Positions 26,629 through 50,503 of a stretch of DNA of 64,000 nt are shown in pieces. Within the stretch, counting starts at the first letter, position 1, and every line of letters starts with the position of its first letter. The notes beneath the pieces are model-generated. The model saw only the letters and a list, made by a program, of their open reading frames with translations, searched no databases and was not told the DNA's origin. A program made the position numbers and the translations under genes. Source of the DNA: Sphaerisporangium album (GTDB lineage: Bacteria > Actinomycetota > Actinomycetes > Streptosporangiales > Streptosporangiaceae); the NCBI RefSeq assembly GCF_003323745.1, contig NZ_QOIL01000012.1, positions 1 to 64,000 on the forward strand, given 5' to 3'.

Positions 26629-26672
26629 GCGGCCGATGTGCTTTGTCGGTGCGGGCCGATAACGTGCCCCCC

Positions 26673-28106
26673 ATGACCAAGACGCAGAAGGCCGGGTACC
26701 GCTGCGCCGAGTGCGGGTGGCGCACCTCCAAGTGGGTGGGCCGCTGCGGCGAGTGCCAGGCGTGGGGCACGGTCGACGCCGAGGACGCCCGCGCGGGCGT
26801 GCACGTCGTCCAGGGGGGTGCCGTGACCTCCCCCGCGCTGCCGATCGGCCAGGTCAAGGCCGAGTTCGCCCGCGCACGCACCACCGGCGTCGGCGAGCTC
26901 GACCGCGTGCTCGGCGGCGGGCTCGTCCCCGGCGCCGTGGTGCTGCTCGCCGGCGAGCCGGGCATCGGCAAGTCCACGCTGCTGCTGGAGGCCGCGGCGA
27001 GCATGGCCCGCCACGAGACCGTCCTGTACGTCACGGGCGAGGAGTCCGCCGCCCAGGTGCGCATGCGCGCCGACCGCATCGGCGCCATCCAGGACCAGCT
27101 CTACCTCGCGGCGGAGACCGACCTCGCCGCCGTGGTGAGCCACGTCGAGAAGGTCCAGCCCCGGCTGCTGATCGTCGACTCCGTGCAGACCATCGGCTCG
27201 TCCCAGGCCACGGGGGTGCCGGGCGGCGTCACGCAGGTCCGCGAGGTCACGGGAAACCTAGTGCGCCTGGCCAAGGACCGCGGCCTCTCCACGGTCCTGG
27301 TCGGCCACGTCACCAAGGACGGCTCGATCGCGGGCCCCCGCGTGCTGGAGCACCTGGTCGACGTCGTGCTGCACTTCGAGGGCGACCGCCACTCCCGGCT
27401 GCGCATGGTGCGGTGCATCAAGAACCGCTTCGGCCCCACCGACGAGGTCGGCTGTTTCGACCTGAACGAGCGCGGCATCGTGGGGCTGCCCGACCCGAGC
27501 GGCCTGTTCGTCTCGCGCCGCTCCGAGCCCGTCCCCGGCACGTGCGTCACCGTCACGGTCGAGGGCACCCGCCCGCTGCCCGCCGAGGTGCAGGCGCTGG
27601 TCGGCCCCACCGAGGCCCAGCAGCCGCGCCGCTCGACCTCCGGCCTCGACCCCTTCCGCGTGACGATGATCCTCGCCGTCCTGGAGCGCCGGCTGAACGC
27701 CCGGCTGAGCGGCTGCGACGTCTTCACCGCGACCGTCGGCGGCATCCGGCTCAACGACCCCGCGGTCGACCTCGCGGTGATGCTCGCCGTGGCCAGCGCG
27801 GCGGGCGACCGTCCCCTTCCGCCGGGCCTGATCGTCCTCGGCGAGGTGGGGCTGGCGGGCGAGCTGCGCCCGGTCAGGGACATCCGGCGCAGGGTGGCCG
27901 AGGCCGCCCGGCTCGGCTTCTCGCACGCCCTGGTCCCCACCGGCTCGCTCGAACAGGAAGCGCCCGCGCTGCCGTCCCCGGACGGGCGCGAGGCCCGCAG
28001 GCCGGTCCCGGTGGCGAGGCCGCCCATCCGCACGACGAACTTCTCGCAGGGTTTCGACGTCACAGAAGCAGAGAACGTCTGGGACGCGTTGACGCACGTC
28101 ACATGA
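26673..28106 (+). CDS. radA: DNA repair protein RadA
   Basis: This 477-residue protein has an N-terminal C4 zinc finger (CAECGW and CGECQAWG), a RecA-like ATPase domain with Walker [12 protein letters not shown], the RadA motif KNRFG (in [14 protein letters not shown]) and a C-terminal Lon-like domain. It helps branch migration in recombinational repair. The start at 26673 is the ATG directly before the zinc finger; the longer frame adds ten residues. It is followed at 77 bases by disA, the usual actinobacterial and firmicute neighbourhood, in which RadA modulates DisA. Confidence 0.97.
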
Positions 28107-28183: not shown

Positions 28184-29272
28184 GTGGCGAACAACTCCAA
28201 GGGCGTCGACGATCGCCGACGACCCACCCTTGCCGCGCTCGCTCCGGGCACCGAGCTTCGCGACGGCCTGGAGCGCATTCTGCGTGGGCACACGGGCGCG
28301 CTCATCGTCCTCGAATACCATCGCGGGGTCGAAGAGGTCTGCACGGGCGGGTTCACGCTCGACGTCGAGTTCTCCGCGACGCGCCTGCGCGAGCTGGCCA
28401 AGATGGACGGCGCCATCGTGCTGGACTCGGCGGCCAACAAGATCGTGCGCGCGGCCGTCCACCTCGTCCCCGACCCGTCCATCCCCACCAACGAGTCCGG
28501 CACCCGCCACCGCACCGCCCAGCGCGTGGCCCGGCAGACGGGCTCGCCGGTCATCTCCATCAGCAAATCGATGCGCATCATCGCGCTGTACCTCGACGGC
28601 GTCCGGTACGTGCTGGAGGAGTCGGCGGCGATCCTGTCCAAGGCCAACCAGGCGCTCGCCACGCTCGAACGCTACAAGATGCGCCTGGACGAGGTCTCCG
28701 GCACGCTGTCCGCCCTGGAGATCGAGGACCTGGTCACGGCGCGCGACGTCGCCGTGGTGGTGCAGCGGCTGGAGATGGTGCGCCGCATCTCCGGCGAGAT
28801 CGAGGGCTACGTCGTCGAGCTCGGCACCGACGGGCGGCTGCTGTCGCTCCAGCTCGCCGAGCTGGTGGCCGGGGTCGAGGAGGACCGCGACCTCATCCTG
28901 CGCGACTACCTTCCCGCGCAGGGCGGGCACCGGCCGCGCTCGGTGGCCGATTCACTCGCCGAGCTGGACCGGCTGTCCCCGGGCGACCTGCTCGACCTGT
29001 CGGCGGTGGCGCACGTCCTCGGGCACGACGGCTCCGAGGCGCTGGACAAACCGGTCAGCCCGCGCGGCTACGGCCTGCTCGCCAAGGTGCCCCGCCTGCC
29101 CGGCAGCGTCGTCGACCGGCTCGTCGACCACTTCGGCGGCCTCCAGAAGCTCCTGGCTGCCAGCACCGACGACCTCCAGTCGGTGGGCGGCGTCGGCGAG
29201 TCCCGCGCCCGCAGCGTCCGCGAGGGCCTCTCCCGCCTCGCCGAGGCGTCCATCTTGGAGCGATACGTCTGA
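28184..29272 (+). CDS. disA: Diadenylate cyclase DisA, DNA-integrity scanning protein
   Basis: This 362-residue enzyme makes cyclic di-AMP from two ATP. The N-terminal DAC domain has the DGA motif ([10 protein letters not shown]) and the RHR motif (GTRHRTAQR), both catalytic; a helical spine and a C-terminal HhH domain that binds branched DNA follow ([20 protein letters not shown]). GTG at 28184 preceded by GGGGGT gives the normal N-terminus (bacterial DisA is 350-375 residues); a second in-frame candidate is ATG at 28102, overlapping the radA end. The c-di-AMP riboswitch before the NlpC/P60 gene in this window is the natural reader of its product. Confidence 0.97.
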
Positions 29273-39347: not shown

Positions 39348-39541
39348 GCGCCGCCGAATCCCGGCCGCGTCCCCGTAGCGGCGGGAACCGGGGACCCAAC
39401 GGCGCACGCAGGGGGCACGCCCCCGGCGAGCCGCCATCCCCGGGGTGAATCCGAGAGGGAGGGCATGGACGTGTCCTCTGTGGTCACGCGCTCGGTAGGG
39501 CTACTCCGGCCCGAACCCGTCAGCTAACCCGGTAGGCGGCC
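39348..39541 (+). promoter_or_regulatory. ydaO/yuaA-type cyclic di-AMP riboswitch
   Basis: The RNA has the conserved blocks of the ydaO class in order: CCGCCGAATC (39351-39360), GCGGGAACCGGGGACCC (39381-39397), CCCCGGGGTGAATCC (39438-39452) and CCGAACCCGTCAGCTAACCC (39511-39530), followed by GGTAGGCGG. A variable stem carries the extra arm in the middle. It ends one base before the Shine-Dalgarno of the NlpC/P60 gene, so c-di-AMP binding probably lowers expression of this wall hydrolase, as known for actinobacterial and bacillar ydaO targets. disA in the same window makes the ligand. Confidence 0.92.
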
Positions 39542-39559
39542 GAGGAGAGGAGCTCGTTG

Positions 39560-40627
39560 GTGCAGCCTAGGCGCACGCCTGGTAGAAGCGCGGGCAGGCA
39601 TGCCCGTCCGGAACGAACAGAGCGCGCCCGAGCCGGCGGAGTGACCAAGCGCCTTCCACGCCGGATCGCGCTCGTCGCCGCCGCCCTGACGGCCCTGACG
39701 TTCGGCACGCCGCTCGTGTCGGCGACCGCCGAGCCGAAGCCGAGCCTCAAGGAGCTCAAGAACCAGGTCGAGAGCCTCTACAACCAGATCGAGTCGCTCA
39801 CCGAGCAGTACAACGGCCAGAAGGAACGCCTGAAGCAGGCGCAGCGCTCCGCCGACCTCGCCAAGAAGACCCTCATCCGCAGTGAGACCGACCTGGAGCA
39901 GAAGCGCCGCCAGGCGGCGCTGTACGCCCAGGACGCGTACATGACCGGCGGCGTGGGGTCCTCCCTGGCACTCGCGATGTCCGGCGACCCTGACGGCTAC
40001 CTGGACCGCGCGGCGACCACCTACGCCCTGCAACTGCAGCAGGGCGAGGAGGTCTCCCAGATCACCAAGGCCATGGACATCGCCGAGCGCGCGAAGGAAA
40101 GCGCCAAGGCGCGCGAGGGCGAGGTCAAGAAGCTCGTCGCCGACCTGTCCTCACAGCGCGACAAGATCCGCAAGCTGGTCGCCAGGACCGAGAGCGCGCT
40201 GTTCAAGCGGGCGCTGTCGCAGGCAGGGCAGACGTACGGCAGGGCCACCCGCATCGACATCCCGATCCCCGGCCAGGGCAAGGCGGCCGAGGCCGCCAAG
40301 TGGGCGATGACCCAGCAGCTCAAGCCGTACGTGTGGGGCGCGGCGGGTCCGAGCACCTACGACTGCTCCGGCCTGGTGATGTGGGCCTACCAGAAGGTCG
40401 GCATCAGCCTGCCGCACTACACCGGCGACCAGTGGACCGCGGGCACGCACATCAACCGGGAGGACATGCGCCCGGGCGACCTGGTCTTCTTCTACAGCGA
40501 CCTGCACCACGTCGGCATCTACATCGGCGGCGGAATGATGGTGCACGCCCCGCGCACGGGTGACGTCGTGCGGGTCGTCCCGCTGGGCAACCGACCGTTC
40601 GCCGGAGCCGTGCGCATCGCCGACTGA
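39560..40627 (+). CDS. NlpC/P60 peptidoglycan endopeptidase under a c-di-AMP riboswitch
   Basis: This 355-residue secreted protein has a Sec-type signal segment at about residues 30-55 (RRIALVAAALTALTFGTPLV) and a coiled-coil region (about 60-210; VESLYNQIESLTEQYNGQKE). The C-terminal NlpC/P60 domain has the catalytic Cys in TYDCSGLVMWAYQ and the His in DLHHVGIYIGG. It cuts peptide stems of peptidoglycan. GTG at 39560 with GAGGAGAGG nine bases upstream is the most likely start, giving a long n-region; a GTG at 39641 would give a usual signal peptide. Coiled-coil NlpC proteins of this kind act in cell separation. Confidence 0.92.
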   Translation: MQPRRTPGRSAGRHARPERTERARAGGVTKRLPRRIALVAAALTALTFGTPLVSATAEPKPSLKELKNQVESLYNQIESLTEQYNGQKERLKQAQRSADLAKKTLIRSETDLEQKRRQAALYAQDAYMTGGVGSSLALAMSGDPDGYLDRAATTYALQLQQGEEVSQITKAMDIAERAKESAKAREGEVKKLVADLSSQRDKIRKLVARTESALFKRALSQAGQTYGRATRIDIPIPGQGKAAEAAKWAMTQQLKPYVWGAAGPSTYDCSGLVMWAYQKVGISLPHYTGDQWTAGTHINREDMRPGDLVFFYSDLHHVGIYIGGGMMVHAPRTGDVVRVVPLGNRPFAGAVRIAD

Positions 40628-50386: not shown

Positions 50387-50503
50387 GGTCATGAGTGCCA
50401 GCGCCAAGCCCCGGCTCGCTGGCCGGCAACCCTCGCGCTCGCGGCGGGGTGCCCCGGGTGAGGACCAGGTCCGGCGCGTGGTGTGCCGGGCAAGCGCGGG
50501 CTC
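50387..50503 (+). promoter_or_regulatory. SAM-IV riboswitch
   Basis: The sequence follows the SAM-IV class nearly base for base: GGTCATGAGTGCCAGCGCCA at its start, CCCGGCTCGCTGGCCGGCAA (50410-50429), GGGGTGCCCCGGGTG (50446-50460), GGACCAGGTCCG and the pseudoknot strand GGCAAGCGCGGGCTC at the end. SAM-IV is found in Actinomycetales upstream of sulfur-metabolism genes and turns them off when S-adenosylmethionine is abundant. It precedes the cysteine-desulfurase-like gene by 50 bases. Confidence 0.93.

Follow-up and report, generated by a model that had tools for sequence, protein, structure and literature searches.

The 64,000-nucleotide stretch of Sphaerisporangium album DNA considered here (the window) raises the question of whether the leader of a cell-wall hydrolase gene senses c-di-AMP and, if it does, how the signal would reach the gene and what part is played by disA, the c-di-AMP synthase gene some 10 kb away. 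A preliminary description had claimed that the conserved blocks of the ydaO class are all present in order at this place, and had named a covariance-model search with RF00379 as the check. That search was run as part of an Rfam scan of the whole window, which returned two matches only, RF00379 and RF00634. The RF00379 (c-di-AMP, ydaO/yuaA) match lies at 39353-39554 on the forward strand, covers model positions 1-134 completely, and scores 53.9 bits against a gathering score of 38 (E = 1e-9 for the whole window). The four core blocks, GGGGACCCA, GGGGTGAATCC, GTAGGGCTACTC and CCCGAACCCGTCAGCTAACC, are intact, and their columns are invariant across the 11 species of the genus alignment; the claim about the blocks is thus borne out. 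Judged by sequence, the observation of a c-di-AMP riboswitch before a wall hydrolase gene is confirmed: 39353-39554 is a genuine member of the ydaO class, and it occupies the 5' leader of the gene for a secreted NlpC/P60 protein.

At 202 nt against a 134-position model, the aptamer is long because of two hairpin insertions that are extra relative to the RF00379 consensus, one at 39394-39439, whose sequence varies within the genus, and the other at 39457-39492, seen in the genus alignment (both on the forward strand). Both occupy length-variable places, and it is these two longer hairpins that bring the aptamers of the genus to about 200 nt instead of the usual 140 or so. The P1 helix pairs GCCGCC (39350-39355) with GGCGGC (39535-39540), as read from the sequence and the genus alignment, with a mismatch at its inner end; in helix P2, the genus alignment contains compensatory changes. 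One detail of the preliminary description was wrong: the aptamer does not end one base before the ribosome binding site, as the Rfam model takes in GAGGAGAGGAG (39542-39552) as its conserved purine tail, a run that holds both the 3' strand of the pseudoknot and the Shine-Dalgarno sequence. The arrangement is conserved among relatives. The orthologous hydrolase was found in all 10 genus-mates, each with RF00379 just upstream (52-75 bits), and in the wider family, scans of 26 further ortholog loci found RF00379 at 20.

The gene directly downstream does encode an NlpC/P60 protein, as had been proposed (PF00877, 96.7 bits against a cut-off of 23). It runs from 39560 to 40627 on the forward strand and specifies 355 amino acids: an Arg-rich n-region and signal peptide (the hydrophobic signal sequence was read by eye), a coiled coil, and the NlpC/P60 domain. 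Comparison of relatives indicates that its translation start is GTG 39560. This codon is invariant in the genus alignment, whereas the alternative TTG 39557 is TCG in L074; the Arg-rich N-terminal extension, in frame with GTG 39560, is conserved; and orthologs with a short leader begin right after the equivalent Shine-Dalgarno sequence, which supports the same start. A start at GTG 39641 (MTKRLPRR...) was rejected, because the upstream frame is open in all 11 species, and it is also excluded by the short-leader orthologs and the invariant GTG 39560. Behind other c-di-AMP riboswitches of the family, a conserved CTG is apparently the sole in-frame start at proper Shine-Dalgarno spacing (loci L001, L023, L024, L027, L029, L030 and L015, as well as L002, L026 and L032).

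A loop-tail pseudoknot has already been described for the ydaO aptamer (PMC5393176). In the window its 5' strand is CUCC, in a hairpin loop at 39504-39507, and its 3' strand is GGAG at 39544-39547, in the register seen in three other copies of the same genome (L002, L003 and L004). The 3' strand directly adjoins AGGAG (39548-39552), the best-spaced Shine-Dalgarno sequence, which lies 7 nt before GTG 39560 and is invariant in the 11 genus members. Over 56 distinct aptamers, loop-tail pairing came to 13.63, compared with 11.99 when tails were swapped among aptamers (sd 0.25, maximum 12.75), and thus beat 500 of 500 swaps, although the richness in purines of any Shine-Dalgarno sequence makes some chance loop-tail pairing likely. 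The scan was restricted by register; an unrestricted version caught spurious CCGG pairs within P1. The in-register pseudoknot of the window aptamer has only 4 bp, whereas relatives reach 9 bp and L002, L003 and L004 have 6-8 bp (e.g., CUUCCACG/CGUGGAAG and CUCCAA/UUGGAG). Three orthologous loci (L041, L045 and L050) have an extra hairpin between the aptamer and the Shine-Dalgarno sequence. In L045 and L050, this hairpin stands between the pseudoknot strand, GGAG(U), and the Shine-Dalgarno sequence; therefore, direct masking is not universal. No intrinsic terminator was found between the aptamer and the gene, the one weak match being deep in the gene and at chance level.

Conservation at the nucleotide level continues beyond the start codon. 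In the 11-species codon alignment, rare codons (those under 10% use) recur in at least 9 of the 11 species in exactly four of 368 columns, and all four (CCT, AGG, CCT and GGA; CCT makes up 3% of proline codons) fall in codons 3-8 (39566-39583, forward strand). The segment can fold as a hairpin at 39567-39582 (CUAGGC-GCAC-GCCUGG) whose pairs are kept in all 11 species; its covariation is not above that of shuffles, in a segment that varies too little to decide. Pairing of this element with GGUAGGCG as an anti-P1 was rejected, and the local hairpin is preferred, because the complementarity is broken in L066/L067 (GGUAAGCG). The conserved codons point to a putative RNA-level role around initiation. 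Our tentative suggestion, which we hold to be possible without thinking it the likelier case, is that throughout the genus the regulatory RNA extends past the start codon, and that, with the Shine-Dalgarno sequence adjoining the pseudoknot strand, the codon 3-8 hairpin completes a translational expression platform. If so, the coding sequence would itself be part of the c-di-AMP switch.

The position given earlier for disA, 28184-29272 on the forward strand, holds: ORF 28160/28184-29272 encodes DAC, DisA-linker and HhH domains (PF02457, PF10635 and PF12826), and a genome-wide search found no other DAC-domain gene. Directly upstream, 77 bp before disA, lies a radA-like gene (26643-28106, forward strand) with ATPase, Zn-ribbon and ChlI-like domains. 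From a single DAC gene with DisA architecture, the host is predicted to synthesise c-di-AMP. Across 32 genomes, the presence of RF00379 and that of DAC agree in 30, and therefore the reader depends on the writer. DAC is present in 15 of the 16 genomes with the riboswitch and absent from 15 of the 16 without it (Fisher p = 9e-7, uncorrected for phylogeny). The exceptions are G070, which has DAC and no RF00379, and G020, which has four RF00379 elements and no DAC gene. All four elements of G020 are on one contig, C101 (53,968 bases; L018), which is perhaps a contaminant or acquired contig. Family members lacking both DAC and RF00379 are G012, G016, G017, G018, G021, G023, G024, G028, G031, G033, G039, G040, G041 and G048; comparison suggests that c-di-AMP synthesis and the riboswitches were lost together in these genomes, and on a tree built from another riboswitch-associated protein the DAC state must change at least twice. 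G048, assembled as a single contig and 99% complete, sits within a group of DAC-bearing genomes, and it keeps the hydrolase at 59% identity with no RF00379 before the gene. The agreement across genomes, together with a lineage that lost both partners and retained the enzyme, makes the genomic evidence strong.

RF00379 matches above threshold number five in the genome (9.3 Mb, 62 contigs), and the window copy has the lowest score among them. None of the remaining four shares its contig; according to sequence and Pfam, they precede genes for an NlpC/P60 protein, a CHAP-domain protein, and two further secreted proteins, one with a coiled coil and no Pfam match and the other with no confident Pfam match.

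We consider it probable that the window element is a c-di-AMP OFF switch on translation of the hydrolase, its ligand coming from DisA, the only diadenylate cyclase of the genome. When c-di-AMP made by DisA is plentiful, the aptamer would close P1 and the loop-tail pseudoknot; the closed strand at 39544-39547, set against the Shine-Dalgarno sequence at 39548-39552, would exclude ribosomes, and no hydrolase would be made. As the c-di-AMP level drops, both pairings would open, the Shine-Dalgarno sequence would be freed, and hydrolase would be produced. What we infer is that this copy binds the ligand, that it acts in the OFF direction, and that it controls translation and not transcription; translational control seems likely because the known pseudoknot strand GGAG adjoins the Shine-Dalgarno sequence AGGAG. 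Measured against the translational OFF switch of the nlpC type, the locus has no terminator, and its pseudoknot strand lies where it may sequester the ribosome binding site in the ligand-bound fold; the lowest score of five copies, the 4-bp pseudoknot, and the intervening hairpin of L045 and L050 speak against this reading. The main rival is transcriptional attenuation, in which the same riboswitch would respond to c-di-AMP with premature termination, perhaps at GC-rich early-coding hairpins without a U-run (39567-39582 and about 39591-39610). On the one hand, rpfA of Streptomyces coelicolor and S. venezuelae terminates prematurely without a canonical terminator (PMC10117811; discussed in PMC9960051), and here two conserved hairpins lie just past the start codon, with nucleotide conservation reaching codons 3-8. 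On the other hand, no U-rich terminator was found, the hairpins are downstream of the start codon, the second is absent from the short-leader orthologs L043, L051 and L054, and the covariation is no better than in shuffles; we regard this output as unlikely, if a serious competitor. Far less credible is a degenerate aptamer that has lost its function. Its low rank among the five copies, the P1 mismatch, the short pseudoknot, and the long insertions could be read in that way; however, all core blocks are invariant with those of the genus-mates, the insertions are genus-wide and at length-variable places, and P2 shows compensatory changes.

A different matter is whether the enzyme is wired to DNA damage. 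The preliminary description saw in the window both writer and reader of a damage-to-wall link. The riboswitch on a wall hydrolase and the sole DAC gene nearby stand, but the reading of their proximity as a dedicated DNA-damage pair is not supported. In such a circuit, DisA would sense damage and signal through the riboswitch to the neighbouring hydrolase, which would account for the closeness of the genes. disA is indeed 10 kb off, on the same strand and beside radA, and the spacing of 9-18 kb is kept in 10 of the 11 genus members and 13 other genomes of the family (in most of the remaining family genomes, the two genes are on different contigs of draft assemblies); moreover, c-di-AMP affects RecA-dependent repair in M. 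smegmatis (PMC11653572). However, c-di-AMP diffuses, and the four other RF00379 elements of the genome are unlinked to disA. Outside the family, RF00379 lies within about 20 kb of a DAC gene in only one of eight genomes, and two family genomes, G046 and G026, keep the linkage of hydrolase and disA yet have no RF00379 match at the hydrolase gene. Work on Streptomyces ties c-di-AMP to ionic osmostress and development, the disA phenotype being one of ionic osmostress (PMC10117811). A LexA/SOS box was also considered and rejected: neither GAACNNNNGTTC nor a near-consensus site occurs near radA-disA or the hydrolase gene. The sequence thus lends the damage link no support, given the unlinked elements, the family synteny, and the missing SOS box. 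A link between DNA damage and wall remodelling is possible, a dedicated circuit quite improbable, and the proximity of about 10 kb is, as gene order suggests, a shared family-level arrangement and no requirement.

The window element can be compared with better-known members of its class. The ydaO construct that was crystallised is presumably the T. pseudethanolicus sequence. In the published construct (PMC5393176), CUCCUUCG/CGAAGGAG stand at the equivalent place, as read by eye; the aptamer core and loop-tail pseudoknot are shared with B. subtilis ydaO/kimA and T. pseudethanolicus ydaO, the RF00379 type members (PDB 4QLM, cited in PMC5393176). B. subtilis ydaO/kimA has an intrinsic terminator and a potassium transporter as its target, whereas the window element has no terminator and a hydrolase. 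The closest parallel is C. glutamicum nlpC (cg2402), where a ydaO-class aptamer also precedes a secreted NlpC/P60 peptidase gene (PMC9960051), and where a single DisA in a radA-disA operon, the lack of a canonical terminator, and CTCC/GGAG complementarity to the ribosome binding site recur. There, the riboswitch represses translation when c-di-AMP is high, with a drop in reporter protein and none in mRNA, and a CTCC-GGAG pseudoknot involving the ribosome binding site was put forward by the authors (PMC9960051). In contrast, the window belongs to a host of another order, its aptamer has the genus-wide hairpin insertions, and its gene lies about 10 kb from disA. In C. glutamicum, nlpC heads a seven-gene operon (PMC9960051). 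As in Streptomyces, there are several ydaO-like leaders per genome and one DisA, the Streptomyces leaders all preceding secreted cell-wall hydrolases (PMC10117811, PMC8079986); however, their target domains are Rpf, LysM and transglycosylase, and the rpfA element is reported to work on the transcript level in S. coelicolor (PMC10117811). In Actinobacteria, c-di-AMP riboswitches as a rule precede wall hydrolase genes (PMC10117811, PMC8079986, PMC11481543), the published precedents being nlpC of C. glutamicum and hydrolase genes of Streptomyces, six or seven in number, and the pairing of this sensor with this kind of enzyme is already known there. The locus adds a well-anchored orthologous family of such riboswitches on a wall hydrolase, and the question from C. 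glutamicum of whether the CUCC-GGAG pseudoknot blocks the ribosome becomes directly testable with it. The new details are the GTG 39560 start, the nucleotide-level conservation into codons 3-8, and a paralogous element with a conserved 14-codon leader ORF.

This paralogous riboswitch (L004; G000:C23:274518-274657, reverse strand) is followed by the short leader ORF and not by the main gene. The leader ORF is also found in genus-mates (L011, L013, L034, L076, L105, L106, L109 and L110); it begins GTG GAG and spans 14 codons in 9 of the 11 members of the genus (e.g., VEHPTPRSPSPGLP), whereas L107 has 11 codons and L108 lacks a matching stop. The start of the main, secreted protein lies about 300 nt further on. 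Behind the leader is a conserved hairpin, CGCCG-UCAGAAG-CGGCG, whose loop is the complement of a CUUCUGA stretch just ahead of the main start, and the element is possibly a riboswitch working through a leader peptide. The second Rfam match of the window, a SAM-IV riboswitch (RF00634, 96 bits) at 50387-50502 on the forward strand, apparently precedes an ORF resembling class-V aminotransferases (to 51894), after which comes a nuoD-like ORF; both were named by eye.
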